DNA of 64,000 bases from an uncultured Poribacteria bacterium (GTDB lineage Bacteria; Poribacteria; WGA-4E; WGA-3G), in assembly GCA_951828385.1 (NCBI GenBank), contig OX639973.1:2102470-2166469 (forward strand), given 5' to 3'. Shown here in pieces: positions 7,035 to 54,608 of the stretch. Each line of letters starts with the position of its first letter. Positions within the stretch are counted from its first letter, which is position 1. The position numbers and the translations under genes were made by a program. Under the pieces are notes generated by a model. It did no database searches. It saw nothing but the letters and a program-made list of their open reading frames with translations, and was not told the origin of the DNA.

Positions 7035-7061
7035 ACAACCCACAAGTACCGGAGATACTAT

Positions 7062-11237: not shown

Positions 11238-11254
11238 AAATGGTATAAGATGAA

Positions 11255-12661: not shown

Positions 12662-12684
12662 TAACCCCCGACTGAAGTCGGGGG

Positions 12685-12862
12685 CTTGTGCGAAGCGTAT
12701 ACCAAACGTTCACTCCACAAGTTAAACTATTTTCTACAGTAAAATATCGTAATATCTGTGGTGGTTCACAAAAGTATTTAGGATACTCCCCTCGTCCTAT
12801 ATCAATGCCGATATTACGATCTGGAAGGGGCAATATACAACCCGTAAGGGAGATTACAAACG
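12685..12862 (+). ncRNA. probable omega-RNA region upstream of isrB
   Basis: IscB and IsrB omega-RNAs are encoded upstream of their nuclease gene, with the guide at the 5' side drawn from the sequence flanking the left end. The 178 bases between the left hairpin and the isrB start have no ORF and contain several complementary blocks (for example AATATCGTAATATC near 12745 and GATATTACGATC near 12810, able to pair through CGTAATATC/GATATTACG). If this element works in the same way, its guide would come from the interrupted gene just left of 12662 (CGGGCAAAAAAGTCAA). Secondary structure was judged by eye. Confidence 0.55.
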
Positions 12863-13891
12863 ATGTTTGTTCCGGTGACGAGTCAAACAGGTCAGAAGTT
12901 GATGCCTACGCATGCTAACAAGGCGGGCGTGCTGATTAAGAAAGGTTTAGCCACGCCCTATTGGTCTAATGGGATATTCTGTATCCGGCTTAACTATGCT
13001 ACCGAAGACGCATACACACAAGATATAGTCGTCGGTGTAGACCCCGGTAGCAAGAAAGAAGGCTTTACCGTCAAATCAGAGGCACACACTTACTTGAATG
13101 TGCAAGCAGACGCTCACGGGACTGTCGGCAAGAAAGTCGCGAAGCGTAGTGAGTTGCGTAGAAGTCGGCGTTCACGAAAATGTCCGAATCGCAAACAGAA
13201 AAAGCACAATCTATCTAATAGAGACCGTATCCCCGCAGGCACGCGTGCGAGATGGGATTGGAAGTTAAGGGTTCTTGATTGGCTTTCTAAACTCTATCCA
13301 CTCACGCATGTCTGCGTTGAAGATATTAAGGCGCCGACGATACAACGTGCAAAGAAGTGGAATCAATCGTTTAGTCCTTTGGAAGTCGGTAAACAGTGGT
13401 TCTATAGCGAAATCCAAAAGCGTTGGGAACTCTACACTTTACAGGGTTGGGAAACCAAAGAGATACGGGATAGGTTAGGTCTCAAGAAGTCTTCAAAGAA
13501 ACTATCAGAAACCTTTGACGCACACTGTGTAGACAGTTGGTGTCTGGCACATCATAGCGTAGGCGGTTTGGATATACCCGATAACACGACGCTTCTGTGT
13601 ATCTCACCGATACCGATAAAACGCAGAGAGTTGCATAGGCAACAGGAAGCGAAAGGCGGTAAACGCACACGGGTGGGCGGAACTCTATTAGGGAAAGGAT
13701 TGGTCAAAAACACACTCATTCGGCATGTCAAATACGGATTAGCCCGACTCGCTGGCGTTAACGCAAAGGGTTTGTTTTCAATATACAGTATGGAAAACAA
13801 ACGATTAACCACGGGGGCGAAGCGGTCTGATTTCAGAGTGCTAACACGTCTTAACTTTTACTACAAGAGCGGTGTTTCCTCCCCTGAATGA
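12863..13891 (+). CDS. isrB: IsrB-type RNA-guided nickase (RRXRR/PLMP domains, RuvC, no HNH)
   Basis: IsrB proteins are close relatives of IscB, the ancestor of Cas9, and nick the non-target strand with RuvC only. The 342-residue product begins with a PLMP-like domain (QKLMPTHANKAGVLIKKGLA, 11-30), then RuvC-I VVGVDPGSKKEGF (Asp60), an arginine-rich bridge helix (RSELRRSRRSRKCPNRKQKK, 95-114), RuvC-II VCVEDIKAP (Glu153) and RuvC-III DAHCVDSW (His221, Asp224). Between RuvC-II and RuvC-III there is no HNH insertion, and the length matches IsrB rather than IscB. AAGGGAG at 12846-12852 is a good ribosome-binding site for the ATG. All catalytic residues are present, so the protein looks active. 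Confidence 0.87.
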   Translation: MFVPVTSQTGQKLMPTHANKAGVLIKKGLATPYWSNGIFCIRLNYATEDAYTQDIVVGVDPGSKKEGFTVKSEAHTYLNVQADAHGTVGKKVAKRSELRRSRRSRKCPNRKQKKHNLSNRDRIPAGTRARWDWKLRVLDWLSKLYPLTHVCVEDIKAPTIQRAKKWNQSFSPLEVGKQWFYSEIQKRWELYTLQGWETKEIRDRLGLKKSSKKLSETFDAHCVDSWCLAHHSVGGLDIPDNTTLLCISPIPIKRRELHRQQEAKGGKRTRVGGTLLGKGLVKNTLIRHVKYGLARLAGVNAKGLFSIYSMENKRLTTGAKRSDFRVLTRLNFYYKSGVSSPE

Positions 13892-19616: not shown

Positions 19617-19835
19617 CTATTTCTCCTATGCGCAGCATTTCTCTCCACTTCTCCATTTGGTAATAATAATCTCTTATAAAAACGCTCCAATAACAGTAAA
19701 GGGTACGAAAAAACTGCTTGACTTTTCTAATAAGTATAAAGTATTATTTAAAATGTGTCAAGCAATTCTGTAGATATAATCTTCAAACCGATGGTGCAAT
19801 GCCATGCATCCCGAATTAAAACGAATTTTCCTGAA

Positions 19836-22800: not shown

Positions 22801-23525
22801 CGGATTGGAGTTACTTAAACCGCAACCTAATCAAACGGGGTAATGCTCGGATTGATCGCGGGCGACTCGGAAACCTGACCCTCGTTTTTGCGTTTGATAC
22901 CCGCGACCACAGATCAACAAGTATACGGTATTTTCACACGTTGTTTGCTGCAAATGAACGCACGCGACGTGGATGGCGCGGGCAGTTTGCTGTCGAGATG
23001 ACCGGGCAATATTTCGGCGGGGATTACGACTTCAATTTCTACCGATTTGAAATAGCGCGCTATACACCGCTGTTTGGTTCACACCACCTGAACGTTCGGA
23101 TTGCAGGCGATTTTTCTGACGCACCCTTGCCCAGACAACGGCTCCTTCATCTTGGAGGAGGGGCTACCGTGCGCGGTTATGATTTCAACAGGTTTGCAGG
23201 CGATAATCGCCTGCTGCTTAATCTTGAGTATAGATTCATCAATGAGACAATCCATAGAGATCCTGATGTCGTATTTGGATGGACACTCAGTGGCTTCTTA
23301 GATACAGGCAGGATCTGGTGGCATGGCGACACACCCTTTTCCGATTTTGAGAATTTCACAACGCAACTTAAAACTTCAATCGGTGTTGGATGTTCCGTTT
23401 TCATGGATCCCTTTGGGACACTTTCACCCTGGATCCTCGCTGTTGAAGTCGCAGAACCGCTTGATGCCTCGTTTTCATCATTACGAAACCCAAAAATCCT
23501 TTTACGCTTGGATCGTATCTTTTAG
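19836..23525 (+). CDS. Omp85 (BamA/TamA-like) outer-membrane protein fused to DUF4097-like and CBM9-like domains
   Basis: About 1229 residues from the ATG at 19836 (19845 is equally possible; a GTG at 19755 lies before the signal peptide). After the signal peptide (LSPLYLFYASMLALNLFVLSAGA is split by its cleavage region) comes a DUF4097-like beta-solenoid (about 60-300: VKIQAKTGDIHLKRIRGKIE, VQLDETLGNYNV). Next is a CBM9-like sugar-binding domain (about 350-580: VDGNLFEVVWQKA, LFMWDAENLYIGVKAY-type strands, EDECIEILIDPN). POTRA repeats follow (about 610-850: ITAIEIEGNTSIPSEVI-like, VKIDGNRSFPSQFI, IRFIGNTRISRAELL) and finally a 16-strand-type barrel ending in Phe. Typical BamA has only POTRAs and the barrel, so the N-terminal half is unusual and may present a ligand-binding module in the periplasm. 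Confidence 0.82.
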   Translation: MLPMCRTILSPLYLFYASMLALNLFVLSAGAVDTQKASDESIPTQEQTLILEATSAEDFSAEDIYRIELNFDIPSDIEIIAMESEVIGVVLEKQIQATKTARDVLIRNYLENVSLIGTQNSDILQLKIKLPEADTTDGKPNPFPNIADLHTTLQKQLQLKCTIKTPPDVSVKIQAKTGDIHLKRIRGKIEIATETGNVQLDETLGNYNVTLKKGRIDGKILLTQGQNTLETQNGSIGLTILDTVAAPMDVTAQGGAIRLELPENYAVDVELKSEKQQVVINLPAQIDEDTSLTLINDGGPLFRLKATDAISLLSSSSNDRNTPPDTVSDPFEGSIQPVPEVTQPPVVDGNLFEVVWQKAALLSPFQNADGTGEPQNPTETFLMWDAENLYIGVKAYVAESQLPHISQTQQDSPIWEDECIEILIDPNLQTDIYYHFVINPIGAFFDQRVNVPGQPDFRFAPHDVQRTLDRKTMQTAFSADSEWNSNTKVATQINATFWSIEVALPREMLEKLSKSDSQDKPALENRWFFNIHRKAYSTALNTEDLAPTTQREYSYWLPTYDSEHPWWPHTPHQYVGILSERYAPAMGVLGFVKASPTFSQTFTSEGKFRVTAIEIEGNTSIPSEVIQHYLPIQPGDVITGSQLSWLIAELRDHDWFQDVRLETRQEPPATGEPEVFPGVSVHIRVTEAPVLLARKVKIDGNRSFPSQFIAEWFQLKPGYFAVEITRRKRQLIADFYSNRGYEFATVTQQLVNDTLKFSIDEGTLHEIRFIGNTRISRAELLSALNLKTEAIAGKPSSQTPDIYRHTLGRSKINRMDKELRENNEHFKAIREWRVQREGWKNIMIVEIEEQPIIKPGGFPIIQFNRVHGLMLGAGGTLATQFTGKEQVFGSISRGFSSKRWNYHAGIEKGFFKRQPLKLGASFYKLTDVSSNIYLHQGDASLSAAYYGSAFQDYYERSGSQGWITYAPTEWSYLRLELTGEQHGNLSKSTDWSYLNRNLIKRGNARIDRGRLGNLTLVFAFDTRDHRSTSIRYFHTLFAANERTRRGWRGQFAVEMTGQYFGGDYDFNFYRFEIARYTPLFGSHHLNVRIAGDFSDAPLPRQRLLHLGGGATVRGYDFNRFAGDNRLLLNLEYRFINETIHRDPDVVFGWTLSGFLDTGRIWWHGDTPFSDFENFTTQLKTSIGVGCSVFMDPFGTLSPWILAVEVAEPLDASFSSLRNPKILLRLDRIF

Positions 23526-35589: not shown

Positions 35590-35870
35590 GGGAAAAAGCG
35601 GAACGATACATGAGTAAAAATTACAGAACTTACGCGCTTTGCTCCGAATGTGAGTGGGAAGGGCATAGAGACGTTGTAGGTGCAAGTAACATTCTCACAG
35701 CGTATCAGGGTTGGTTGTTCAACCCTGTAGTCGGGGCGGTGGTATCCCCCGTAGGTAGCCGATATCATCCGAACCTATGTAGACTTAATAAGTGGTCACC
35801 GTTTTCGGGACTCAAATCAAGTAAGCCTTCCAAGAGAAGGCAAAGAAGCACACGCCTTTAGGCGTTGTGA
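35590..35870 (+). mobile_element. remnant of an IS200/IS605 element
   Basis: A short relic containing the tail of a tnpB gene and hairpins resembling an omega-RNA and right end: 35707-35726 (AGGGTTG/CAACCCT), 35825-35841 (GCCTTC/GAAGGC) and 35852-35865 (ACGCCT, loop TT, AGGCGT). The last has the same TT loop as the intact element's ends at 4776 and 6202. It lies between the homocysteine methyltransferase and the Hsp70 operon, whose ribosome-binding site begins about 8 nt after it. Confidence 0.65.
35610..35861 (+). pseudogene. tnpB: tnpB C-terminal fragment
   Basis: The 83-codon frame begins with part of the TnpB zinc ribbon and RuvC-III: CSECEWEGHRDVVGASNI contains CxxC and the catalytic HRD aspartate. 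Everything upstream (RuvC-I, RuvC-II, first zinc pair) is missing. The rest of the frame (from about residue 30) runs through the structured RNA region and is probably not protein-coding. Confidence 0.75.
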
Positions 35871-35892: not shown

Positions 35893-37488
35893 ATGGGTAA
35901 GGTTATTGGTATTGACTTGGGAACGACATTCTCAGCAGTTGCACATGTTAATGAATATGGCAAACCAGAGATTATTCCTAACGCCGACAACCACCGAATT
36001 ACATCATCAGTGATTTTGTTTAAAGATGGCTCTGTCACTATAGGTAATGTTGCCAGACAACATGCCAGATCAGGCCCAGAGCAGATTGTTGAATTTGTCA
36101 AACGCGAGATGGGTAAGTCAAAAGAAACATTTTTCCGTACATTTGATAGTAAAGACTATTCCGCTGAAGAGCTATCATCTCTCATCTTAACCAAACTCAA
36201 ACAGGATGCTGAAGCATATCTTGATGCTGAAATTACTGACGCGGTTATTACTGTTCCAGCGTATTTCCACGACGCAGAGCGTCAGGCAACGCGTAATGCT
36301 GGTAAAATTTCTGGATTGAACGTTCTGCAGGTGCTTAATGAACCGACTGCAGCTGCACTCGCCTATGGCATTGATCAATTAGGTTATGAACAAACCGTGT
36401 TAGTGTTTGACCTTGGAGGTGGAACGTTCGATGTAACCATAATGAAGGTTGCTGGATCCAAAATAGAAATGATTGCAACAAACGGAGACCATAGACTGGG
36501 CGGTAAAGATTGGGACGATAAAATCATCATCCATGTCGCCGAGATTTTTGAGACTGAACACGGCGAAAATCCTTTGCAGGATCTTTGTGCTTATCAAAGT
36601 CTTCAATTTAACGCAGTCAACGCGAAAATACGGTTATCTCATCAAGAAAGAGCTTCCATCGCTTGCGAATACAATGGTAAAACAACGCTCGTGGAATTGA
36701 CGCGTGAGAAATTTGAGGAACTCACCGCTGGGCTCCTTGAAAAGTGTCGTGCTTTATGTGAGATAGTTCTCTCTGAAGGTAATATGACGTGGGCAGACAT
36801 TGACACAGTGTTATTAGTGGGGGGAGCAACGCGAATGCCGATGGTACGGGAGATGATTGCTCATATCAGCGGAAAAAAAGTTAACCCGCAAGAAGTTAAT
36901 CCTGATGAAGTTGTCGCGCTCGGTGCAGCACTCCACGGAACGCTCCACCAAATCTCCGAAAATCCCTCTTCAACAACAGACCTGCCAGATGTAGTTATTG
37001 ACCGGTTCTTCGGGCAGGATGGTGTGCCTAAAATAACAGTAACTGATGGTGCCACCCATAATCTCGGACTTGTTGTTCTCAATTCGTTACGCGAGCCTAT
37101 TATCCACGTAATGATTCCCAAAATGACCGCTATTCCTTGTGAGAAAGAAGACATTTTTAGAACCGTGGAAGACAACCAGCGTTCGGTGTTAGTTGAGATT
37201 GTCCAAGGGCTTGAACAGGGTCAACTCACGGATGAAATAGATGTATTTGAGGCTTATAAATTGGGAGAATGTACCCTTGAACTACCGCAAGGGCTGCCGG
37301 AGGGGTCTCCTGTACGTATTACCTACTCCTACAATCGGAATCAACTGCTTGAAGTAACAGCAACTGCCCTCAGTAGTGGCGACGCAAGAGGAATTTACGA
37401 CCTCTTTTCTGTCATTAAAAGACCAACGCTTGATGCTAAAGAAGTTGCGCAAGCTCAAGCAAACCTACAAAGCTTGGCGGTTAAATAA
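35893..37488 (+). CDS. Hsp70 family protein without C-terminal lid
   Basis: A 531-residue DnaK relative. The nucleotide-binding domain (about 1-375) is complete: GIDLGTTFSAVAHV (phosphate 1), VFDLGGGTFDVTIMKV (phosphate 2) and LLVGGATRMPMVREM (adenosine). A beta-type substrate domain follows (about 390-510: ATHNLGLVVLNS, RSVLVEIVQG, LPQGLPEGSPVRITYSYNRN). The helical lid of about 100 residues in normal DnaK is absent. A strong GGAGGAAAGGA ribosome-binding site precedes the ATG. It heads an operon with three membrane proteins (next gene 83 nt downstream), so it probably serves that complex rather than general folding. Confidence 0.87.
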   Translation: MGKVIGIDLGTTFSAVAHVNEYGKPEIIPNADNHRITSSVILFKDGSVTIGNVARQHARSGPEQIVEFVKREMGKSKETFFRTFDSKDYSAEELSSLILTKLKQDAEAYLDAEITDAVITVPAYFHDAERQATRNAGKISGLNVLQVLNEPTAAALAYGIDQLGYEQTVLVFDLGGGTFDVTIMKVAGSKIEMIATNGDHRLGGKDWDDKIIIHVAEIFETEHGENPLQDLCAYQSLQFNAVNAKIRLSHQERASIACEYNGKTTLVELTREKFEELTAGLLEKCRALCEIVLSEGNMTWADIDTVLLVGGATRMPMVREMIAHISGKKVNPQEVNPDEVVALGAALHGTLHQISENPSSTTDLPDVVIDRFFGQDGVPKITVTDGATHNLGLVVLNSLREPIIHVMIPKMTAIPCEKEDIFRTVEDNQRSVLVEIVQGLEQGQLTDEIDVFEAYKLGECTLELPQGLPEGSPVRITYSYNRNQLLEVTATALSSGDARGIYDLFSVIKRPTLDAKEVAQAQANLQSLAVK

Positions 37489-37571
37489 ATAGGAACTCTT
37501 AATATTAAATCGCATCGTCGTTTGTGATCTCAGCACTTGCTAACCACTATCTGATTCAAGAGGACTGATGT

Positions 37572-39182
37572 ATGTCTAAACGTGATGACTTCATTACCTT
37601 TGTTCGTGAGTTTAAAGCTGCTTCACCGACCATTAGCACTGAACAATATAGAGGACTTCTCCGACAAGCAAATAACAAGTACGAACTCTCCGATAATGAG
37701 GCTTCTGAAATCCTGAAGGATTTAGGGCTGAATATCGGAGGGGCAAACAACTATTTTGAGGTATTAGGGTTTTCAATGGAAGGATTGCAAAGTCTTAATG
37801 AGGATGATATTGTAGATCGTGTAGAGGAAGCTTACAATGTACGTTATACAGCGTCCTTGAATGCCGGCGCGCGCCCCCGACTCGACGGTAGAACAGAAGA
37901 ACAGTGGCGGGATCTTTTAATTCAAGCACGAGATACCCTTGAGGATTCCCAAAAACGAGAAGCGTATGTTGCCAATCTACAACGAGAGTTGGATAACCTT
38001 TTCGTAGAGGATGGCCCGCTTATCTTCAAATTCCCCAACGGTGATGAAGCTTTCAATATCCCACAACTGGCAAAGTTGATGCTGAAGAATTCAAAAGATG
38101 CCACCGATGCCCTCTACCGTGGCTACTTAGAGCAGAGTCTCGGTAGGGTTGGCGAAATGCACTTTGCCGATGCCGCGCGAGTTATTGTTAGTGAATTTCC
38201 CGAGCGTCGCGAACTCGGACTTAAAGCTATAGTGTCAATCCTACAGCGGAAAATGGAGTTTCAGGAAGGTCAGGTTGCCCGAACACCTGCCCAATTAGCT
38301 AACTCAATTGACCTGAATTGGGAAGAGGCAAAAAGCCTTTTGTTCAAGGGGTTCATCGCACTCTGGCTCGAATACAATCAGCAATCGCAATTAGCCAACA
38401 TTGCTCGAAACATCACCACACTTTACGGAGATGAGCAGGACATTGGTGTGGAAAAATTAGTTCAAAGTCTGAACCCGAGAATTGGTCATCCAAAGCTCCA
38501 TGTAAGTCATGAGTCAATCAACTTTGGCAACGTCGATACTGAGACTCAAAAGAAGATTCAACTCGAAATAAAAAACATTGGACGCGGGTTTCTCTATGGC
38601 AATCTCCAATTAACCAATGATGTACCGGGGATTCAACTGGCCACTACGACCATTCGCGGAGATACTCTTGTTATCGTCAAACTCGACGCAAGTCTCTTGG
38701 CATCGAAAAAAATGTATAAGACCGAATTAGTTGTCAACACAAATACTGGTGATCCTACAACTCCGTCATCACAGTATGTCATCAAAGCGGAATTGGAATC
38801 GACTATTAATACAAATGTCGGTGGTTTATCTGGTGATATAACAATCCCAATAGCTTGCTATGTTGACTATCCAATCCTAAAATCAATACGTCGGGTTGCA
38901 GTGAGCGGTGCCTCAGTAGCGGCTATTACCATTGCTGTGTGTCTAATAATTCTTCTACTGGGAGACGCTGGGGGGTTAGCAACGCACTTGACGGATACCA
39001 ACTTTGTAACTTTTGATGCTGATTGGACCGAATGGTCAGACAAATGGCTATGGATGGATTGGACAATCTATAAATTTGGACCACAAGGCGCTAGTTATCG
39101 TTTTGTAATTGCTCTTGCTGCACTCGTTGTAGGTATCTTTGGCTATTGGTTCTTTTTCTTGAAAAAAAGAGGGCAGCTATGA
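37572..39182 (+). CDS. membrane protein with divergent J-like domain and ASH/Ig-like domain
   Basis: I recognise no single family for this 536-residue protein. Residues about 58-140 resemble a J domain (NYFEVLGFSMEG, VEEAYNVRY, LIQARDTLEDSQKREAYV) but the HPD triplet needed to stimulate Hsp70 is missing. Residues about 150-300 are helical (IPQLAKLMLKNSKDATDALYR, ARVIVSEFP). About 305-410 reads as an ASH/DUF1573-like Ig domain (LHVSHESINFGNVDTE, IEIKNIGRGFLYG-like). Two membrane helices end the protein (about 442-464, 508-530). Its stop overlaps the next start (ATGA). Neighbouring an Hsp70 gene, a co-chaperone-like tether is a reasonable inference. Confidence 0.7.
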   Translation: MSKRDDFITFVREFKAASPTISTEQYRGLLRQANNKYELSDNEASEILKDLGLNIGGANNYFEVLGFSMEGLQSLNEDDIVDRVEEAYNVRYTASLNAGARPRLDGRTEEQWRDLLIQARDTLEDSQKREAYVANLQRELDNLFVEDGPLIFKFPNGDEAFNIPQLAKLMLKNSKDATDALYRGYLEQSLGRVGEMHFADAARVIVSEFPERRELGLKAIVSILQRKMEFQEGQVARTPAQLANSIDLNWEEAKSLLFKGFIALWLEYNQQSQLANIARNITTLYGDEQDIGVEKLVQSLNPRIGHPKLHVSHESINFGNVDTETQKKIQLEIKNIGRGFLYGNLQLTNDVPGIQLATTTIRGDTLVIVKLDASLLASKKMYKTELVVNTNTGDPTTPSSQYVIKAELESTINTNVGGLSGDITIPIACYVDYPILKSIRRVAVSGASVAAITIAVCLIILLLGDAGGLATHLTDTNFVTFDADWTEWSDKWLWMDWTIYKFGPQGASYRFVIALAALVVGIFGYWFFFLKKRGQL

Positions 39183-40087
39183 TTTGGCAAGTTTCTATCA
39201 AAGAGGGATTCACAACCCTAAATCAGAATCGAAAGTTAATTATCATTGCGCTGATCTCCGTGGTATTTGGCAAGATCATCGATCTAATTGAACAATTTAC
39301 TGATAAGACATTATACGAACTTATTGCTGTGAGTGTCAGCACAGAGAAATTACAACATGCCCTTGAAAGCGCACAAGCAGGGCGTTTTGACGAAATTTGG
39401 CGAGTGCTCAATCACATGGAATACCTCAACCTGGAACAACCGCAATTTCTGATTATTGTAGTGTGTCTCTTGATAGCTGCGTTTTTAATTGCCTTTTATA
39501 ATGATACTGGCCTGGCCGCACTCATTCGTGACCTACTGATAAACAACAATTATCGCTCGACACAGGTCGTCGCCTATGGTCGGATGTATTTCAAGCCTGC
39601 ATTTGCCTTCAAGGGTTCGTTTTACCTCATTTCTGGTTTTGTGGTTATTATAATCTCACCGGTCCTCTTTTTCATCCATTATACCTTAGCTTCCTCGATT
39701 CTCGCATGGACAGTGATCGCGCTTTGTGTGCTGCCTTTACTTGTCATTTACTCCAGTTTTCTATCACTTGGGATGAAGTTTATCATTATTGAGGGTGAAC
39801 ACCGTGTTCGAGCGATCTATCAACTCACTAAATCACTTATGCTTGATAACAAATGGGAAGTTAGCACATGTTTTTTCATTATGGTGTTAGTAACTGTCGG
39901 CTCCACAATCGCAGCTTACTATCTCATGGGCAGCCAACTGCAATTTCTTATCAGCTATTCGTTAAGTATTTTTATCCTTTCTTATGTGACAGTGCTTCTA
40001 AAAATCACCAGTTTTGTTTTTTATCTTTTGATTCGAGATAGACAAATTTCATCTATCCGTGACAGGGAGGGTGCCAATCATGAGTGA
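39179..40087 (+). CDS. six-helix membrane protein of unknown function
   Basis: The 302-residue protein starts within the previous gene's stop codon (4-nt overlap), so it is translationally coupled; an in-frame upstream ATG at 39146 would add residues encoded by the neighbour. Membrane helices are at about residues 18-40, 86-110, 140-162, 166-188, 212-234 and 248-278. The loop between helix 1 and 2 is hydrophilic (DKTLYELIAVSVSTEKLQH). No transporter or enzyme motif is visible. It overlaps the next gene by 8 nt. Confidence 0.72.
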   Translation: MIWQVSIKEGFTTLNQNRKLIIIALISVVFGKIIDLIEQFTDKTLYELIAVSVSTEKLQHALESAQAGRFDEIWRVLNHMEYLNLEQPQFLIIVVCLLIAAFLIAFYNDTGLAALIRDLLINNNYRSTQVVAYGRMYFKPAFAFKGSFYLISGFVVIIISPVLFFIHYTLASSILAWTVIALCVLPLLVIYSSFLSLGMKFIIIEGEHRVRAIYQLTKSLMLDNKWEVSTCFFIMVLVTVGSTIAAYYLMGSQLQFLISYSLSIFILSYVTVLLKITSFVFYLLIRDRQISSIRDREGANHE

Positions 40088-41342
40088 AGGGATAGGTTGT
40101 ATTATTGCGGTGGCAGTCATTGGCTTTGCAATTTGGGTTATTGGTCAACTTGTCGCTATAGTCCTTTTCGTGGTTCTTGTTGTTCCTATCTATCTTGCTT
40201 TTCTCTTGTATCTTGGATTGAGATTCATCGCGACAAATATATTTGTCGCGATGGATAAACTTTTTTACCTTGGATTCGACGTGCCTGTTGTTATAGTTTG
40301 GGTTTTCTGGGGGCTCATGATTGGCGCAGCGATTCAAGGATACCGAGAATTGAGAGGTATTTATGGGCGGAAATGGATAGGAATTTTAATACTCCTTACG
40401 CCTGTGCTTTTGTTGACTCTCGTTGGTGTAATCAAAAACGTCGCAGGCTCTGCACCTTCACAGATCATAGCACTTCCTGTTACGGAGCAGAACATCATCG
40501 GACCAAAAAGAAAATTAATCAAAAGCACGAAGAAATCCCCTACTGGAATGGACTATACTCGGTCAATATCTACAGACCTATCTCCCCGGACCAACATGAT
40601 ACTAATTCCCGCTGGTGAATTCCAAATGCAATCCCACGGTATTGCTGGAACGTTCTCTGGAGAAATATACGTTGAGGCATTTTATATTCACGCGTACGAG
40701 GTGTCGAACGCGCAATATAAGAAATTTATAGATGCTAACCCACAGTGGCGAAAAGACCAAATTCTGGATAAATACCACAATGGAAGTTACTTAGACTATT
40801 GGGATGGAAATAATTACCCAACAGGTAAGGACGATTATCCAGTTACGCATGTGAGTTGGTGTGCAGCGATGGCCTACGCGCAGTGGGTGGATAAACGTTT
40901 GCCAACAGAAGCTGAATGGGAAAAAGCAGCACGTGGTGGATTAATAGACATGAAGTATCCTTGGGGGAATACGATTGAGGCAAACAAGGCAAATTACAAC
41001 GGAAACTTTCAGGGTCCCACGCCTATTGGCAATTACGCTGGGAATGGATATGGCTTATGTGACATGTCAGGTAACGTTTGGGAATGGTGCCTTGATGCGA
41101 ATGAGTATTATGTGACATCACGTGGTAGAATGATTCCAGATGTCAAACCAATTTCAGTAACCGAAACAACATTTCTTGTGCACAATTTCACTGAAGTCGA
41201 GAGTACCACGGAGCGCGCGTTACGTGGCGGCAGTTGGGATAACTTCGCTCCTGATGTCCAAGTAGGAAGCCGCCACGCGCTTGAACCAACGTTCGCTCAT
41301 GGTGGACTTGGCTTCAGATGCGTTAAACCTGTAAATCCTTAA
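40080..41342 (+). CDS. membrane-tethered FGE-sulfatase (SUMF1) fold protein
   Basis: The 420-residue protein has about four membrane helices (1-115) and then an FGE-sulfatase domain (about 175-418): ILIPAGEFQMQ, YEVSNAQYKKFI, YPVTHVSWCAAMAYAQWV, LPTEAEWEKAARGG, YPWGNTI, GLCDMSGNVWEWCLD, ALRGGSWDNFAP and GFRCVKP. True formylglycine-generating enzymes need cysteines just after the RGGS motif; here that stretch (RGGSWDNFAPDVQVGSRHA) has none, so it is probably a binding or signalling version. GGGAGGG at 40065-40071 is a strong ribosome-binding site for ATG 40080. It is the last gene of the Hsp70 operon. Confidence 0.8.
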   Translation: MSEGIGCIIAVAVIGFAIWVIGQLVAIVLFVVLVVPIYLAFLLYLGLRFIATNIFVAMDKLFYLGFDVPVVIVWVFWGLMIGAAIQGYRELRGIYGRKWIGILILLTPVLLLTLVGVIKNVAGSAPSQIIALPVTEQNIIGPKRKLIKSTKKSPTGMDYTRSISTDLSPRTNMILIPAGEFQMQSHGIAGTFSGEIYVEAFYIHAYEVSNAQYKKFIDANPQWRKDQILDKYHNGSYLDYWDGNNYPTGKDDYPVTHVSWCAAMAYAQWVDKRLPTEAEWEKAARGGLIDMKYPWGNTIEANKANYNGNFQGPTPIGNYAGNGYGLCDMSGNVWEWCLDANEYYVTSRGRMIPDVKPISVTETTFLVHNFTEVESTTERALRGGSWDNFAPDVQVGSRHALEPTFAHGGLGFRCVKPVNP

Positions 41343-46328: not shown

Positions 46329-48251
46329 TTACCAATGCTTGAATGAATACATCCGTTGTCCCAGGAATAGTCCTAAAATCGCCCAAATACTTCCCATCAC
46401 AAATTCGCCGAGCATTGTCCCGAAAAAGAGGGGCAGTGTTCGGCGATACGCACCGAGCCCACCGTGCCGAATCAGGATCGTCTTTATCAGCCAAGCCAGA
46501 AAGACTGGAAACCAGAGCCTACCGAAATTCCAATTGCCCGCGAGCGGATAGGCAAGTGGGTGCAGCTGCCACCAGATAAACCGCAAGCGCATAAAAAGCG
46601 TTGTCAGCGTTAGCGAGATACCGAATCCAAAAAAGCCGAGGCGACTCCAGTCTGTATCGTTAGGGAGCGTCAACCAGCGTTGTAAGTCGCTGAACGCCTC
46701 TTGCCCGCGCCATGTCCCCAAACTGCCATGTCGATAACCAGCGTGTAGGAACGCGATAAACCCAATCAGGAGTCCGATAACCGTTGCACCCCACATCACC
46801 CAAAGGATTTGCCGTGTATTAATACTCCCTTTATCTGCAAGTTTAAATCCCTCTAATTGATTCGGCATCGGTTGTGAACGGTAGTTGCGGGTGAATCCAT
46901 AGAGAAAGGCGAACCCCGTCAATGTTGGCGCACCAATCTTTCTGGAGCCAAAAATTGAAGTCAGGAAAAGACCAGGACCAGCACGGTAGAAATCCATCGT
47001 CGGGGTGCCAAGTTCAGCGCGCATCCGCGTAAACGCTAAAACAAGTATAAAATGGATACCAAAAAATCCGAGTACACCCCACCACGACATCCCCGCCTTC
47101 AGGCAAAAACCAAACACAACCGCAATACTAATCAGTAGCCCAACAAACGCCCCACGATACCCGATCGGTTCGTTTGCTGTCCCAAGACTCGTTTTCATAC
47201 CTAAGATATTACGGATAACCTGCCACAAATGCTTGTGTGTTATCCAGAGCGCAAAGAAACAGAGACCAAAATATGCCCCAAGCGATTGCATATCTATGTG
47301 CGGATACCCCGGTGTCTGATTCATACCTGTCATTGCGCCGAAGACAAGCTGCGCCTTCCAAAACAGGTAGAACAACCAACAAGAGAGCGATAGATCCAGC
47401 GGCATTAGGAAACCGATGCCAATAGCATACGGATTCAAATGAATCGGTGTTGATCCGATAGCACTCAACGGTTTTTCAGTGAACATCGCTCCGATGTCGT
47501 AGCGGATAGGGATGCTCGGTACAAACGGATAGAGGAAACTGATACCGTTGAGCAGATCGAGTCCACAGCCAATTGCGAAGCCTATCCAGAGAAGTCGGTT
47601 CCGGTAAAAACTTACACCTTTCGTCATCTCAAAGGGGAGTAAGATAATCGGGTAGCTCAGTTTCTCGTGTTCAATCCACTGTTTGCGGAGAATGACGCTA
47701 AGCATCATCATAGAGAAGGCAAGCGCGGAAAAGAACACTAACCATGCCATTACCGGCGTAAGCCACGCGCGGATACGCGCGATTTCAAATAAATTTGACG
47801 TGCCTTCGTAATAACCGGTTAAAGCACGCCGATTCATAACAGCAATCCAGTCTGGAATGTATCGAAAAAAGAGAGATTGCCATTCGTTCTCCGGTGTAGC
47901 GAACCACGAGGCGTGTCCTAAGACGCACATCGTCGCCTGCAAAAGATCGTGCCCACACACGACGCATGCCAGCGTTACCATGAGGTATACCGTCAGCATT
48001 TCTGCCTGTGTGAGTTGCCATTTCGGGAAGTAACGGGTTAGCGGTAGATTGATGATTGTGACGAGGAAGAGTGTAAAAACGGCGTTGAAGATAATCGCCA
48101 TTGTGGTCGGATATTGTGTCGTCCATACCGTTTCCGTCTGAACCACAAGGTAGATATTGAGCGGGAGCGACAGGAAGCCTATCAGGATAGCCCGCCAGGT
48201 GATGCTTTCAACTGAAGTACGTGGGGGTGTGTCCATATTTCTGTCTGTCAA
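46329..48251 (-). CDS. large multi-pass membrane protein (DUF6785/DUF6784-like)
   Basis: The 640-residue protein has about 12-14 membrane helices (for example ILIGFLSLPLNIYLVVQ, MAIIFNAVFTLFLVTIINL, VMAWLVFFSALAFSMMMLSV). Conserved-looking loops include EHEKLSYPIILLPFEMT and the region TGMNQTPGYPHIDMQSLGAY. It resembles the DUF6785/6784 families that are frequent in Poribacteria and related phyla and remotely similar to oligopeptide transporters; the name is from memory and should be treated as tentative. Substrate unknown. It stands between the DUF4097 pair and the BamA-like gene; the latter ends 31 nt upstream on the same strand. Confidence 0.7.
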   Translation of the reverse strand: MTDRNMDTPPRTSVESITWRAILIGFLSLPLNIYLVVQTETVWTTQYPTTMAIIFNAVFTLFLVTIINLPLTRYFPKWQLTQAEMLTVYLMVTLACVVCGHDLLQATMCVLGHASWFATPENEWQSLFFRYIPDWIAVMNRRALTGYYEGTSNLFEIARIRAWLTPVMAWLVFFSALAFSMMMLSVILRKQWIEHEKLSYPIILLPFEMTKGVSFYRNRLLWIGFAIGCGLDLLNGISFLYPFVPSIPIRYDIGAMFTEKPLSAIGSTPIHLNPYAIGIGFLMPLDLSLSCWLFYLFWKAQLVFGAMTGMNQTPGYPHIDMQSLGAYFGLCFFALWITHKHLWQVIRNILGMKTSLGTANEPIGYRGAFVGLLISIAVVFGFCLKAGMSWWGVLGFFGIHFILVLAFTRMRAELGTPTMDFYRAGPGLFLTSIFGSRKIGAPTLTGFAFLYGFTRNYRSQPMPNQLEGFKLADKGSINTRQILWVMWGATVIGLLIGFIAFLHAGYRHGSLGTWRGQEAFSDLQRWLTLPNDTDWSRLGFFGFGISLTLTTLFMRLRFIWWQLHPLAYPLAGNWNFGRLWFPVFLAWLIKTILIRHGGLGAYRRTLPLFFGTMLGEFVMGSIWAILGLFLGQRMYSFKHW

Positions 48252-48281
48252 CTCTTAACAGTCCCTAATACATTTGGTATA

Positions 48282-50273
48282 TTAGAATGTGGACTCAATT
48301 CCCCAAAAGAGCATCTGTTTGACCGGCGGAGAAGACGGGGCATCGAGTGGAAACGCAAATTCAAAACGAAATATCCCGGCATTGCTAATCTTCGCAAACC
48401 CACCCCGGAGTCCGAATCCAATGCTCCGCTTCGGGTCCATCAGGTTAAATGTCCGTTTCCCATTCCAGATATAACCGATATCGCTAAAGGCAGTGGCACT
48501 TAGGATGAGCCCAAGGTTAACGGAGCGTTTGATAAATGGTTTCGCGATGAAAGTGGCAACCGCTTCAATCCCTTCATCAAGCTTCCTGAAGAGCGTCCCG
48601 CCACAAACAGTGCGGCTCTCAAGGCGCAGCACCATCATTTTTTCACCGCTAAATTGTCGGTAGTCGTAACCTCGCAATCCGTTGAAAGCACCGAGGAGTA
48701 CCTGGCTTTCACCAGACCAGCCAAACTGCAGTCTCGTTTTGAATTCTGCAACAAATGTTTGATGAAAATCTAAAAAACCGTTTTTACGAAATCCCTTGTC
48801 AACAGTATAGATGTCGCCTGTATTGAATACGTCTGTGTAGTACCACGAGGTTCGCGCCTGAAATGTGGAATTCTCAATGTGTGTTGTGAAATATGAACTT
48901 ATATCTATAAGCATTGTGCCTAATATCCGCTTCCCGCGGGTCCATCCTGCTCTACCTATAAGATTGGCGTAACCTTCGGATCTGTCTGAACCGTATAGAG
49001 GCGAGGCGTGACCTAATGAGAAAGCGTATTCAGACCCTACTAAAAAAACTTCCTCGCGCCCCATTCTTCTGATAAACTGCGTCTTGTGATAAGTGACACG
49101 TTTCCGTCCGACAGTAATACCAACCAGTTGGATGTCGCGATTTGATGGATCCGCCGTGGAAGGAGATTCTTTCTCAATTAATACATACTTTGAACGCCGC
49201 GAAGTTGCCCAAAGTCCAACATAGCTTTGACGCTCGCGATCCCCAAAATACCGTCGAATTCTGCCAGACACGCCTTGTAGATTCATCTCAAACCTATCTG
49301 TTCGCTCTGACTTATGAGAGAGTGAGTCCATTTCATACCATGAGAATTCGTTGACTGACTCTGATAGCGTAAACCTCGCACTCCAACGACTTTTCAAGGT
49401 ATATTGCGGGCGTTCTAATATAATCGCCCATGAATCCCCCTCCTGTTTCTGAATGTAAGCGCCATCAAAATTCCAGTGTGAATTGACAACACGGGGCATT
49501 CTATACTTCCATGTTAAAAGGCTCTTCGTCTTTTCGCCAATCTCACTAATCCGTTTATAACGGACCTCGGTATCGTGTCCAGAGCCAAATACGTTGGATT
49601 CCCGTATCCCCAAAAGGAATGTTCCACCTTGACTGTTCAACACGGGACTGATTGCAGGAAGTGGCGGCGACCAAAGTTCCGTGACATTAACCTGAATCGC
49701 TACCGTATTGGAACTCGCATCCCACAACGGAGCAATTTTTGCTGCTCCGATATAACTCTTATCCCGGAGTATTTGCTCACTTTCCTCTTTATCGGCTTCT
49801 ATGTAAACATCACCAACTTCAAACAAGAGTTCACGGAGAATAACATCTTTCTTGGTTTTCTCATTACCGGATAAGTTGATTTCTCCGATAGTCCCTTCGT
49901 CAATTTCAATACCGAGATAAACGCCATCCGCAAACTTCTTTACTGAGAGCTCTTCTGTGTCTACGCGCGCAAAACGATAGCCATTTTCCTTATAAAAATT
50001 TATGATTGCTTCAAAATCTAATGCCAGAACGCTTTCATCATAGACACTCCAGACATCCGTCCGCATCAGGGCGCGAATTTGCTGTTCGGAGAATGAATGA
50101 TTACCCTTGATAACGAGACTTCGCACGGTATTCGATTCATCCCCAAACCCCGTTGTTTTGTCTTGTGAAGCCGTCGCTGTCTCTGATGCAATTTCAACGT
50201 GTATGGCGATACTCAGCAGCACTATTAAACACAATGTTCCAAACGAGCATGTGGGGTGACAAAATTCTTGCAT
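48282..50273 (-). CDS. BamA/Omp85-like outer-membrane protein
   Basis: The 663-residue protein has a signal peptide (about 1-33), two or more POTRA domains (about 48-210: SLVIKGNHSFSEQQIRALM, FEAIINFYKENGYRFARVD, IGEINLSGNEKTKKDVILREL) and a C-terminal barrel (about 220-663) with Omp85 features such as FNGLRGYDYRQFSGEKM and SIGFGLRGGF, ending in Phe. Such proteins insert or export outer-membrane proteins or lipids. It is a second Omp85 copy in the window; it lacks the extra N-terminal domains of the one at 19836. The two are not adjacent, so they probably serve different clients. Confidence 0.83.
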   Translation of the reverse strand: MQEFCHPTCSFGTLCLIVLLSIAIHVEIASETATASQDKTTGFGDESNTVRSLVIKGNHSFSEQQIRALMRTDVWSVYDESVLALDFEAIINFYKENGYRFARVDTEELSVKKFADGVYLGIEIDEGTIGEINLSGNEKTKKDVILRELLFEVGDVYIEADKEESEQILRDKSYIGAAKIAPLWDASSNTVAIQVNVTELWSPPLPAISPVLNSQGGTFLLGIRESNVFGSGHDTEVRYKRISEIGEKTKSLLTWKYRMPRVVNSHWNFDGAYIQKQEGDSWAIILERPQYTLKSRWSARFTLSESVNEFSWYEMDSLSHKSERTDRFEMNLQGVSGRIRRYFGDRERQSYVGLWATSRRSKYVLIEKESPSTADPSNRDIQLVGITVGRKRVTYHKTQFIRRMGREEVFLVGSEYAFSLGHASPLYGSDRSEGYANLIGRAGWTRGKRILGTMLIDISSYFTTHIENSTFQARTSWYYTDVFNTGDIYTVDKGFRKNGFLDFHQTFVAEFKTRLQFGWSGESQVLLGAFNGLRGYDYRQFSGEKMMVLRLESRTVCGGTLFRKLDEGIEAVATFIAKPFIKRSVNLGLILSATAFSDIGYIWNGKRTFNLMDPKRSIGFGLRGGFAKISNAGIFRFEFAFPLDAPSSPPVKQMLFWGIESTF

Positions 50274-50380
50274 TATACTTTACCTGTATTAAAGGTTGTT
50301 GGTGCGGTCTTTCTTTCTGCAAAAAACCTTTTCGTTAGTTAGAAAGAGATTTTAAGGCTATCAAAAACCTCTTGTCACCA

Positions 50381-52612
50381 TTAACCATCAACCATTAACC
50401 GATTTGAAAGGAAACTTTCGAGGAGCATACAGCAAACAGCCAAGAGAAGCAACTCACCCCATATTTCCCTGCCGTGTCTTTTAACGTTATAAGCCTCATC
50501 TGCCACTGTTATCCCTCCAGCCGCCTCATCTGCTGTTGTTTCCGCACCGACGCGTGCAGCCGCCTGTTGAAGTGAAATCTGTGCTAAATCGGCTTCAGCC
50601 GCATCAACATTGACCGCGAAAAAGTCTCGCTGAAGTCTGTTTTGTGTGCGCACCTCAACCTCATAGATGCCGGGACGTTCTGTGCCTCGAAATTGCAATG
50701 TACCGTCCTCAGCAATCGGGACCACAATGCTATTGTCAGCATCCGTACCAGCATTCTCTGGTGTAGTATCAACAGGGGTTTTTAAGCGAATAGACGCTTT
50801 CCCACCAGCACTGTGAGGATAACGCGTTGTATAGGTGTCTCCGATATGTCCGCTCCATGTTAAGAGATTGCGCTGTGCTGTAGCAGTGTAAAGCACACTC
50901 TGTTGGAGCATCGGGAGGAAATACGGATTAACGAGTAGGTCGTTTGTAGCAGCTGTAGTGCGAGAGCGTCTGGCATTGGCATTTGATGTGTTAAGCTGTC
51001 GTCTGAGCAATCCGCAGTTATAAAGTAATACTGTACTTATCCCTTGATTTCGCTCAATAAGAAACGGCGTATCATCGTCAAAATGTGCTATTACCTCTGA
51101 TTCAGGGGTAGGACGTAGCATCACACCGCTATAAAATTGTGGGGCGTATTGCGCAGAAAACCCTTCGTTCGGAAAAATATCAAAAATAGGGTGTCCCTCT
51201 TGGTACGCACGAACCTGCTGCGGCGGGGTCCATGTGAGTGTGCTAGCAAGTCGCGCAGGCAACCAAGCATCGCTACGTGAGTTGTAACTTTCTGCATCGC
51301 TGTGCTTGCTCACAAAGGCTATAACGCTTTTGCCGTGTCGGATGAATTCTTGAAGCTGCGCACCGATCTGTCGGGTAATCTTTGGCACGTCTGCCAGAAT
51401 GATAACGTCGTAATCTTCAAGTGGAAAGGATTCAAATTCAGTGGGCGTGCATTGCGTCGGTAAAATCATTATACCGTTGGTGTCTATTGTATTTGGGCTT
51501 GTCCCTTTAGAAACCGCATCCCCGTTAACGAGGGATGAAACAGGAGCATTATGTGGATTGAGTGCCAATGCAAGGTATTCCGTCTGTTCCCCGACACAAA
51601 GGACACGCACTTCACCGATCACATCCAGGGCGAAATAACGCTGGTTGTCGATGTTGAGTCGGTCCGCCGTGAGTGTAAGGTAACCGATATGTGTGCCGGG
51701 TGTAGAAAAGTTGTATGTTAAAGTTGTGTTCAGTGATTCGTTAGCTGCTGCAGAAAAGCTCACAGTTTTTTGTTTTTCCGCACCAATAAACAGCGTTAGC
51801 ATACACTGCGTCAAGGGTGCTACTGAGTGATTCGCAGTTGTTACATTTAATTGGAGCGGTAGATTTACGCCTATTAGTTGGTTGGATGGTCGGACTTCTT
51901 CAATATTTGTGTTATGTGCTTCTCCTTCGGCAACCGGAATCAGAGAAACGCGCGCACCAGAGCGATTGTAGGGGCGAGGTAACCTCGCCCTTACGTTCTC
52001 CCATCCGTTTCGCGTAAAGTCTGAAATGAGATAGAGTTCTTTGTTCAATTGTGCTGATTCGGCGAGGATTTCGTGCGCAAGTTCAAGGCTCGGTTGGACG
52101 TTCGTGGCGCGATAAGAGACCGTCGCAGCATGAATCGCTGCTGTAACGCTTCCAAGGTCAGGTGTGAGCTGCCGGAAAATGGGATTTGGAATATCCGACA
52201 TTAAAATAAGCGCGGCACTGTCTCCGTGCCGCAGTGTATCCATAATATCAATTGCCAAAGCTTGTGCTTTTTCAAACCTGATGCCGTCAACATCTTGGTG
52301 TGCCATACTGTAAGAGTTGTCTAAAACGATGACTATGTCAGTTTTCGCACGCACGGATGCAACCGGCAGTCCAAGCGTCAAGAATGGACGTGCTAAAGCC
52401 AGCGCGATAAGCGCGACGATTGCCATCCGCAAAAGCAAAATAAGCAGCTGCCTGAGTTGGAATCGCCTCGCATTTTCACGATGCGCCGCCATCAGAAACA
52501 TCAAGCTGCTAAAATCAACCGTCACAACACGGCGACGATTCCAAAGATGGATAATCAGTGGGATACCAGCGGCGAGAAGTCCGAAAAGAAAAAATGGGTT
52601 GAGAAATGCCAT
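50381..52612 (-). CDS. BatA-like von Willebrand factor A membrane protein
   Basis: A 743-residue protein. The N-terminal BatA segment (FLNPFFLFGLLAAGIPLIIH, and a second helix about 55-75) anchors it; a VWA domain follows with the MIDAS motif DNSYS (Asp98, Ser100, Ser102) and the later TNVQPSLELAHEIL. Residues about 310-480 look like a class I amidotransferase-like fold (EDYDVIILADVP, IRHGKSVIAFV). The C-terminus has another helix (WGELLLLAVCCMLLESFLS). A palindromic repeat (51968-51995) lies in frame inside the gene and codes for residues about 206-215. BatA-type proteins are often linked to MoxR ATPases, but none is in this window. Confidence 0.83.
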   Translation of the reverse strand: MAFLNPFFLFGLLAAGIPLIIHLWNRRRVVTVDFSSLMFLMAAHRENARRFQLRQLLILLLRMAIVALIALALARPFLTLGLPVASVRAKTDIVIVLDNSYSMAHQDVDGIRFEKAQALAIDIMDTLRHGDSAALILMSDIPNPIFRQLTPDLGSVTAAIHAATVSYRATNVQPSLELAHEILAESAQLNKELYLISDFTRNGWENVRARLPRPYNRSGARVSLIPVAEGEAHNTNIEEVRPSNQLIGVNLPLQLNVTTANHSVAPLTQCMLTLFIGAEKQKTVSFSAAANESLNTTLTYNFSTPGTHIGYLTLTADRLNIDNQRYFALDVIGEVRVLCVGEQTEYLALALNPHNAPVSSLVNGDAVSKGTSPNTIDTNGIMILPTQCTPTEFESFPLEDYDVIILADVPKITRQIGAQLQEFIRHGKSVIAFVSKHSDAESYNSRSDAWLPARLASTLTWTPPQQVRAYQEGHPIFDIFPNEGFSAQYAPQFYSGVMLRPTPESEVIAHFDDDTPFLIERNQGISTVLLYNCGLLRRQLNTSNANARRSRTTAATNDLLVNPYFLPMLQQSVLYTATAQRNLLTWSGHIGDTYTTRYPHSAGGKASIRLKTPVDTTPENAGTDADNSIVVPIAEDGTLQFRGTERPGIYEVEVRTQNRLQRDFFAVNVDAAEADLAQISLQQAAARVGAETTADEAAGGITVADEAYNVKRHGREIWGELLLLAVCCMLLESFLSNRLMVDG
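51968..51995. repeat. REP-like palindromic repeat inside a coding sequence
   Basis: 28 nt with arms GTAGGGGCGAGGT and ACCTCGCCCTTACG around an A-centred axis. It is read in frame by the BatA-like gene (residues about 206-215, ENVRARLPRPY), so the insertion is tolerated. It is nearly the reverse complement of the copy at 56317-56344. Confidence 0.8.
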
Positions 52613-52805
52613 CAGTAGTTATCAGTCGTCAGTCGTCAGTTAAGAAAGTCGTCAGCCGTCAGAAGAATAGTTTTCGGTCATCAGTCATCAGTTTTGGTTT
52701 TTGATAGATGTACACCTTCTTTTAAGATGTTATCCTCTCTGAAATGCTAATAGTTTCAAAGGAGATTTGGGTTTATCAGGAACCTCTTTAACTGATAACT
52801 GATGA

Positions 52806-54608
52806 CTACTCAACGATAGCAATTTCGAGTTGATTGAGTGTTCGGAAAACGCCTTCGGCGAATTCCATCAGGTTATCCGATTCCACAGTGCTGCCGCCAA
52901 GCTGAATATGATTCGCATCGGCGATGGTCTGTCCCAATGTTGGATCCATCTGGACCCATTTGCCGACGTAGACTTCAGGCCAGAAGTGGTAGTAAAAGGC
53001 ATCCTTCGCAAATGTGATACCGGAACAGATCCGTGCCGGAATGCCAGCCGCACGTGCTAAGGCAATGAAAAGCACAGTGTGTTCCGTGCAATCCCCAGAG
53101 AGTGACGCTAATGCAGTTAAGGATGAACCGAAGCCACCACTCATTTTTTTCTCCGTAATGGCTGTATGAACCCATTCGCATAATTTTTCTGCCGCACGCC
53201 ATGAATTAACTTCCCCGTCTAATATTTCCTCGGCTTTCGCACGAATCGCTGGCGCATCGGTTTGAATATAAGCACTCGCCCCAAGGAATTCACCTGCTAC
53301 ATCTTGAATCGGTAAGGTCGGACAGTCTTCCGCTACAACCGTTGGCACTTGAATCGAAAGCCTACCCGCCTTCTCACTCGTTACGATCAGTTGTTGTTGG
53401 GAATTAGACATAATGGCATCAGCGATGTTTCCTGCTGGCAGTTTCACCGCTGCTTTGAAGTTTTTTGCCTTGGGTGTAGGGCGTTTGCCGGACGGAAGGA
53501 TACGCGTTTTTAAGACCACATCAACTTCTTCAGTGTCGCCAAGCGCGGTTTCCTTATCCGTTTTCGTGGTTACCATAGAAAGTCCCATCATGGGTACTTC
53601 TGTTCTATAGTTCACCCCATCCGCGTCGAGCCATACTTTCGCGGTAATCCCATTCATCATATCCAGCGTCTGACGCAAAACATGAACCTGCTTTTCCTCT
53701 GACTGGTAGGTTAAAGTATCTTGCCCTTCAACCTCGAGCTCTGTTTTCACGGGCTTCAACAGATCGAAACTGAATATATGAAAATTCCGTTTTTCACCTA
53801 TTTTAAGCCCCTGTTTGAACAGCGATTCCACACCTACGTGTTCCGAGATTGTATCCGGCGGTACTGGAACTTCTGATTCAGTGGTTTCTCCATTAAGCGT
53901 TGTTTTAATGTAAGCAACACCATCTACAATCCGTCCCTCCACCTGTTTCAAGCCGGATTCATTGGAGGTCGAGAGAAAGTGGCGTGGCATTAAATCGGAA
54001 CCTGTATACTCCACGCGAGTGATTTCTAATGTCACATCCGTCCCAAGTGCCTTAAAATTCATAACCATATCAATTTTGTGTCGATCTACCTCTTCCCCTT
54101 GATACTCGGTTTTGTCTGTTGACATACGCATATAACCGATCTTGGTATTCATCAAGGCGAGGTCGTACCAGTGCTCTTGCGGATTTTGTGACATATTCTC
54201 AAGGGCATTCTGTTCTTGGAGTTTTTTTTGGAACCTGTCCATGATGGCGGCGATATTCGACTTTTGGGTCATCTTAAGCGGGACGTAATGTTTGCCGCCA
54301 TCAACAACTGTAACCGGTTTCCCAAGCCGATCGCCGTATCCTTCCTTATAGATACTAATTAGGTAACGACCCGCGGGGAGACCTGTTCGTTCATAATCAC
54401 CATTTTCGTCGGTTGTTGCTTCATATACTGACCCATTTATATCGACAATTTTTACTTGAACGCCTTCTATTGGATTCTGTTGACTACCGGTGTCAGTAAT
54501 CTTACCTTCCACGGTTCCACCATTCACATCTTCACCTTGTGCGAAGACGATACTAATGGACATCCCGGCACAAGCCATTAACATTAACACGAAACTTAAA
54601 CGAACCAT
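52806..54608 (-). CDS. exported transglutaminase-like protein with carboxypeptidase-regulatory-like domain
   Basis: The 600-residue protein has a signal peptide (about 1-23), then a carboxypeptidase-regulatory-like beta domain (about 30-112: GTVEGKITDTGSQQNPIEGV, GDYERTGLPAGRYLISIYK). The middle part (about 140-390) is beta-rich with no clear name. The C-terminal transglutaminase-like domain (about 440-590) carries a cysteine-histidine-aspartate triad: LSGDCTEHTVLF, YYHFWPEVYVG and MDPTLGQ. Such domains in secreted proteins usually act as proteases or cross-linkers. It follows AACTGAT-like repeats downstream and lies 197 nt from the BatA-like gene. Confidence 0.85.
   Translation of the reverse strand: MVRLSFVLMLMACAGMSISIVFAQGEDVNGGTVEGKITDTGSQQNPIEGVQVKIVDINGSVYEATTDENGDYERTGLPAGRYLISIYKEGYGDRLGKPVTVVDGGKHYVPLKMTQKSNIAAIMDRFQKKLQEQNALENMSQNPQEHWYDLALMNTKIGYMRMSTDKTEYQGEEVDRHKIDMVMNFKALGTDVTLEITRVEYTGSDLMPRHFLSTSNESGLKQVEGRIVDGVAYIKTTLNGETTESEVPVPPDTISEHVGVESLFKQGLKIGEKRNFHIFSFDLLKPVKTELEVEGQDTLTYQSEEKQVHVLRQTLDMMNGITAKVWLDADGVNYRTEVPMMGLSMVTTKTDKETALGDTEEVDVVLKTRILPSGKRPTPKAKNFKAAVKLPAGNIADAIMSNSQQQLIVTSEKAGRLSIQVPTVVAEDCPTLPIQDVAGEFLGASAYIQTDAPAIRAKAEEILDGEVNSWRAAEKLCEWVHTAITEKKMSGGFGSSLTALASLSGDCTEHTVLFIALARAAGIPARICSGITFAKDAFYYHFWPEVYVGKWVQMDPTLGQTIADANHIQLGGSTVESDNLMEFAEGVFRTLNQLEIAIVE

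Follow-up and report, generated by a model that had tools for sequence, protein, structure and literature searches.

An Hsp70 without a lid and J-like proteins without HPD in Poribacteria: a four-gene membrane operon and a possible dedicated chaperone pair

The operon described here lies in a 64,000-nucleotide stretch of contig OX639973.1 (positions 2,102,470 to 2,166,469 of the forward strand, hereafter the window) from an uncultured Poribacteria bacterium, whose 6.66 Mb genome is one contig. It codes for an Hsp70, a J-like membrane protein, a six-helix membrane protein and a membrane protein with the fold of the formylglycine-generating enzyme (FGE); the features are collected in Table 1. 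The open reading frames agree with the original prediction, made from the sequence alone, of four genes with overlaps of 4 and 8 nucleotides (nt), provided that translation is taken to begin at the internal ATGs at 39179 and 40080. The dN/dS of all four genes is 0.13–0.29 when compared to the sister locus L043, which shows that they are under purifying selection.

Table 1. Genes and domains of the Hsp70 operon, in positions of the window
Feature	Position	Strand	Description
Gene 1	35893..37488	+	Hsp70 of 531 aa without a lid; keeps the ATP-site motifs; Gln in place of the J-contact Arg; altered linker
Gene 2	37572..39182	+	Membrane protein of 536 aa with J-like, helical and ASH parts and two helices
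J-domain fold without HPD	37752..38006	+	Gene 2 aa 61–145; AlphaFold2 and Foldseek
Middle helical domain	38022..38471	+	Gene 2 aa 151–300
ASH/PapD-like Ig-type domain	38460..38765	+	Gene 2 aa 297–398
Two predicted membrane helices of gene 2	38901..39161	+	aa 444–462 and 512–530; hydropathy scan
Gene 3	39179..40087	+	Six-helix membrane protein; ATG start; 4-nt overlap with gene 2
Gene 4	40080..41342	+	Four membrane helices and FGE-fold domain; ATG start; 8-nt overlap with gene 3
FGE (C-type lectin fold) domain	40587..41333	+	Non-catalytic, missing cysteine
Putative ligand-site stretch, GGSW to GFRC	41238..41309	+	24 residues, most variable among paralogues

Gene 1 matches the Pfam HSP70 family at 2e-119 over profile positions 1–493 of 599, and it stops about 30 residues past the beta substrate-binding domain. 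Since the protein is no longer than 531 aa and the match ends at 493, it lacks the helical lid of Hsp70 chaperones, as had been predicted; a minority of known Hsp70-like proteins are likewise without a lid. The ATP-site motifs (the K70 equivalent, NEP and DLGGGT) are kept, which makes the nucleotide-binding domain that of an Hsp70.

The J-like domain of gene 2 was recognised by its fold. An additional N-terminal helical part (aa 1–55) lies ahead of it, and the N-terminal region of about 141 residues was predicted by AlphaFold2, with 81 relatives as input, at a mean predicted local distance difference test score (pLDDT) of 84. When the J part was compared to the PDB with Foldseek, the first 17 matches were all J-domains, with a top probability of 1.00 and modest E-values of 0.15–2, and the fold is thus that of a J-domain. 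The sequence support for this is weak, a profile search with the J-like region ranking Jac1/HscB first at an E-value of 0.12. None of the 130 unique J segments has the HPD motif, and for this reason the domain is named J-like and not J. The middle part of the protein is predicted to be a helical bundle and a beta sandwich. The best Foldseek match of the ASH part is the PapD-like domain of HYDIN (2e-6), which identifies it as a PapD-like Ig sandwich, and the ASH domain of CEP192 (7e-4) and OCRL domains are also among the matches. Both the J and the ASH part are predicted to lie on the inner side of the membrane. A Pfam match of gene 2 to EntA_Immun (0.0005, in one of 17 members) was judged to be due to chance.

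Gene 3 has six hydrophobic helices in the hydropathy scan and no match to any Pfam family in the profile search; it is present in 3 of 85 Poribacteria genomes, each time in the gene order of the window. Gene 4 joins four helices, found with the same scan, to a domain that matches Pfam FGE-sulfatase at 1e-50 and FGE and SUMF1 among the PDB profiles, and thus has the FGE fold. The second catalytic Cys column is never Cys in the 105 FGE domains of the J-linked family, and the first Cys falls in a deletion. The cysteine pair of formylglycine-generating enzymes is thus absent, which rules out an active sulfatase-maturing enzyme. Charge counts do not settle on which side of the membrane the FGE domain of gene 4 is found. 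The J-like domain without HPD, the ASH domain, the FGE fold without its catalytic cysteine and the numbers of helices had all been predicted for genes 2 to 4, and they have all stood up to comparison by structure, profile or hydropathy.

The loss of HPD is mirrored in the Hsp70. In E. coli, HPD touches DnaK with its Asp at Arg167 and with its His at the linker, and mutation of HPD reportedly abolishes ATPase stimulation in every system tested (PMC8215388). The position of Arg167 is Gln or His in all 33 aligned Hsp70s of the loci, a set in which some genomes are included twice, and the linker is replaced in all of them. Among 39 unique Hsp70 sequences the position is Gln in 30 and His in 2; the exceptions are two sequences without a readable motif, one spurious pattern match, in the truncated frame of L056, and four second Hsp70s with Arg, which are extra Hsp70 genes upstream in their loci (L073, L074, L082 and L084). 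The window genome's own DnaK also keeps the Arg. As the contact is lost on both sides, the sequences suggest that the Hsp70 and the J-like proteins are a dedicated pair with a different contact.

The two proteins also go together in their distribution. When 84,980 species genomes were searched by pattern with the J-like alignment, 29 loci were found, all in Poribacteria; such a scan is biased to close relatives, and distant J-like homologues may therefore exist elsewhere. The J-like domain is present in 29 of the 85 Poribacteria genomes, all of one family. Of these 29, 28 also have the partner-type Hsp70 (E below 1e-40), which no genome without J has (Fisher p 1.3e-21, a value to be read as indicative because the genomes are related). 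The remaining J-bearing genome, G080, has two other Hsp70 genes at its locus L073. With the two co-occurring in 28 of 29 genomes, the genes are not mostly found apart, an outcome that would have spoken against the original prediction.

The usual order is one Hsp70 followed by 1–10 J-FGE genes on the same strand, mostly less than 100 nt apart. The second locus of the window genome is of this kind, with an Hsp70 that is 73% identical over its full length followed by three tandem J-FGE fusions. Five loci have no Hsp70 in the stretch retrieved: L066, L067, L069 and L071 are second clusters, their genomes having a main locus as well, and L054 is close to the edge of its contig. The Hsp70 of L056 is spread over two frames. 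Broken J-FGE copies are found in several loci (e.g. L054, L055, L057 and L065), which suggests gene turnover. Extra gene pairs were observed inside the J-FGE clusters of L055 (14421–15617) and L063 (14298–15552), the latter pair being similar by eye, and the second gene of the L055 pair codes for a DUF2971 domain, with a match to PADLOC candidate PDC-S31 at 5e-17.

The window order, with its six-helix gene, recurs in G079 (L043) and in G068 (L082, another genus). The four-gene membrane form is thus a minority variant, found in the same order in three genomes, one of them without the FGE part. The core of the system is the Hsp70 and the J-like domain, and most loci lack gene 3.

What varies from protein to protein is the module attached to a constant J-like domain. 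In most proteins the module is an FGE fold, in several a WD40 propeller, in one ankyrin repeats (L073) and in one a seven-helix region (L034), and in the window it is the helical, ASH and membrane arrangement. Six genomes have an all-in-one protein, a single chain of 1018–1047 residues that unites J, middle part, ASH, membrane helices and FGE. Since they are fused there, genes 2 and 4 of the window correspond to separate parts of that one protein. Two further genomes have a J-mid-ASH-FGE protein that lacks the multi-helix part. The one in L050 has no predicted helix; the one in L059 has a single helix between ASH and FGE, which would place its FGE domain outside. No membrane helix was found in 126 of 133 J proteins with a simple hydropathy scan, and most J-FGE proteins are therefore probably cytoplasmic and soluble. 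The membrane-bound complex of four proteins that the original prediction proposed stands in so far as co-occurrence, gene order and fusions show that the genes belong together; it does not stand as the general form, the membrane type being a minority, gene 3 mostly absent and most J-FGE proteins soluble.

It was also possible to observe parts of the system in other settings. In L073 of G080 one run (2428–13480) codes for Hsp70-vWA, Hsp70-GrpE with a J-like stretch, J, J-ankyrin, J-mid-ASH-membrane and membrane-FGE proteins. L040 (2559–5027) has a protein kinase with a zinc ribbon fused to a middle/ASH module like that of gene 2, and in L039 (7433–8535) of G033, which belongs to another family, the membrane parts of genes 2 and 4 are two small separate genes without J, FGE or Hsp70.

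In most loci of the sister genus, and likewise in the all-in-one loci, the gene immediately upstream of the partner Hsp70 is GrpE-like (Pfam GrpE 4e-8 to 1e-11 for those scanned). In the soluble loci of the window's genus an ankyrin gene occupies this position, and neither of the two is found beside the window locus; one GrpE gene and three DnaJ genes pass the family cut-off elsewhere in the window genome. All six all-in-one genomes have a caspase-PEGA-FGE gene together with the Hsp70 and GrpE-like genes, in G075 on another contig than the 1045-residue receptor. In L032, L034 and L076 this gene and the GrpE-like gene overlap or almost touch, and the N-terminus of the caspase-PEGA-FGE product looks like a signal peptide. 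By eye, the caspases of L032, L034, L076, L083 and L084 have a GHG histidine and also a cysteine, probably catalytic, within TDTCSN or a similar sequence, with Asp changed to Asn in L083; the copy in L074 is cut off at the end of the stretch retrieved. In L082 and L073 the caspase is a separate gene with FFAGHG and DACFSG motifs, and an Hsp70-vWA fusion is present as well. Of the eight caspase-domain matches in the window genome, none is near either Hsp70 locus. A survey of prokaryotic caspase homologues with accessory domains (PMC3501461) reportedly mentions FGE-sulfatase, and the upstream gene of the all-in-one loci is likewise a caspase with an FGE domain; the differences are that no such gene stands beside the window and that the linkage to Hsp70 and J is a new element.

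The FGE domains themselves vary most in the 24 residues from GGSW to GFRC (2.58 vs 1.43 bits, the highest variability among the 105 domains). Paralogues within one locus are 55% identical in the FGE core and 25% in this stretch, and the nearest homologues in another locus 83% and 87%, with a dN/dS in the stretch of 0.12 between close homologues. It appears that every receptor has its own site, preserved between species, which amounts to fixed specificities. Because the site differs among paralogues yet is kept between species at this low dN/dS, the variation does not look like hypermutation or an arms race. We infer that the stretch is the ligand site because known relatives, TvpA among them, have a C-type lectin fold. 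A sulfatase adjoins the soluble locus in conserved synteny; the ligand stretch being the most variable part argues against one common sulfatase motif. An origin of the variability from a diversity-generating retroelement was rejected, as the dN/dS is low and no reverse transcriptase of that type is linked to the loci. The sole RVT_1 protein of the window genome (L072, G000:C1:468000-478000) is probably a CRISPR-associated reverse transcriptase, since a Cas1-like gene and CRISPR-like repeats are adjacent to it.

Directly upstream of the Hsp70, at 35610–35861, there is a short open reading frame with a weak, below cut-off match to Cas12f1-like TNB (0.0007), which looks like the remnant of a TnpB-type transposase. 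Farther away, the window holds genes on the minus strand with BatA/vWA, transglutaminase, POTRA and DUF6785/DUF6784 domains (46329–54608), and a 1256-aa protein that unites DUF4097, CBM9-like, POTRA and Omp85 domains (19755–23525).

The reading that we favour, with a confidence a little short of even, is a dedicated GrpE-Hsp70-J machine with exchangeable sensor-adaptors. The J-like domain would dock on its partner Hsp70 by a non-canonical interface, and each module, whether FGE, WD40, ankyrin or ASH plus membrane helices, would bind its own fixed ligand. Ligand binding would recruit or cluster the Hsp70, whose ATP cycle would assemble or remodel a complex and thereby set a threshold. In the window the sensor would be split over three membrane proteins, with J and ASH facing the cytoplasm and FGE carried by its four-helix anchor, perhaps outside. 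In the relatives the likely output would be regulated proteolysis or cell death, since the receptor shares an operon with caspase-PEGA-FGE. More doubtful is the wider idea of a new class of bacterial sensing machine, in which the ATP cycle of an Hsp70, and not a STAND, AAA+ or GTPase switch, would read a heritable repertoire of lectin-fold receptors via re-wired J domains, with a caspase output in the membrane form.

Several observations weigh against a sensor. With HPD lost, the J domain may be unable to stimulate ATP hydrolysis. Neither a GrpE-like nor a caspase gene is found beside the window locus or its sister L043, and L043 has lost the FGE domain and kept the remainder, so that FGE can be dispensed with there. 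A housekeeping role would equally fit the syntenic loci and the purifying selection. The main rival is client folding, which we regard as possible but less probable: a client-specific chaperone set without signalling, in which targeting J-proteins would each bring one client, e.g. an exported enzyme or an envelope complex, to a dedicated Hsp70, the window being a membrane version, as suggested for HscC with DjlB/DjlC. This precedent (PMC8215388) is consistent with it, as are the fixed, conserved specificities with their low dN/dS, the conserved synteny of the soluble locus with the sulfatase and a glycoside hydrolase-like gene, and the lack of defence neighbours. However, the caspase-PEGA-FGE operons and the kinase-mid-ASH and Hsp70-vWA fusions resemble signalling, a copy number of 1 to 10 with broken copies is unlike a fixed housekeeping set, and the lid that holds folding clients is missing.

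It is improbable that the J-like domain is inhibitory or for docking only, holding the Hsp70 in one state. The model for this is Pam16/Tim16, whose J-like domain without a working HPD likewise acts with an Hsp70 system at a membrane; it differs in belonging to the mitochondrial import motor, where it pairs with Pam18, and in having no sensor module. The absence of HPD from all members, and the reported loss of ATPase stimulation in HPD mutants (PMC8215388), would agree with such a role, but the partner Hsp70 also lacks the HPD-contacting Arg, which a re-wired interface fits at least equally well, and the loci encode no canonical J protein to inhibit. Least likely of all is an anti-phage defence in which FGE would recognise products of the phage and infected cells would be killed by the membrane proteins or a caspase: constant-plus-variable architecture, FGE, Hsp70, caspase and vWA recur in conflict systems according to the parts of PMC7159879 used here, caspases occur in membrane-type loci and the DUF2971 gene lies inside one cluster, but the four window genes have no PADLOC match, the neighbours are mostly metabolic and include no defence genes, no phage or plasmid relatives were found, synteny is stable and the ligand stretch is not fast-evolving. 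An origin from a defence island or mobile element finds no support in these observations, and no association with phage-defence islands was seen.

No description of a Poribacteria Hsp70, FGE or J-like combination was found in the open-access literature, in agreement with the original prediction, which knew of no described system with these parts. The closest description appears to be the Hsp70/GrpE/DnaJ-FNIII theme of the GAP1-N2 systems, reported mainly in actinobacteria and firmicutes in the sections of Kaur et al. 2020 (PMC7159879) that treat them. There, Hsp70 and GrpE occur with a DnaJ domain that is joined to Ig-like (FNIII) repeats, in some cases with a second form of Hsp70, and vWA and membrane parts are found in the same class of systems. 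In contrast to the Poribacteria loci, a GTPase-GAP1 pair defines those systems, the J partner is a DnaJ and not an HPD-less J, and tandem J-FGE arrays are not described in these sections. We recognised no GTPase or GAP1 among the locus genes scanned, no GAP1 profile being run. The FGE fold of VMAP ternary systems and bDLD3 proteins, where it is called FGS, is likewise a non-enzymatic lectin-fold binding part with a constant adaptor, but in the accounts drawn on (PMC7159879, PMC8195603) the adaptor is something other than a J domain and the ATPase something other than an Hsp70. The nearest chaperone parallel is HscC with DjlC in E. coli: HscC is a specialised Hsp70 with dedicated, membrane-anchored J proteins, DjlB and DjlC, encoded nearby, but DjlC stimulates the HscC ATPase, and there is no ASH, FGE or WD40 module and no array (PMC8215388). 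The CoCoNuT type IV restriction systems also have an Hsp70-like protein within a conflict system, predicted to hydrolyse ATP at extremely low efficiency; they differ in their McrBC-type GTPase and nucleases, and DnaJ or GrpE is not mentioned (PMC11090510).

In the Poribacteria a single Hsp70 is matched with as many as ten J-fold adaptors whose binding modules differ. Both sides of the classical Hsp70-J contact are altered together, which makes the loci a natural test of how a J domain without HPD functions and offers a case for how an orthogonal chaperone circuit evolves. The setting is that of sponge-associated symbionts, whose host is an early-branching animal group. If the link to the caspase is functional, a chaperone-driven switch would join the bacterial routes to regulated proteolysis or cell death.

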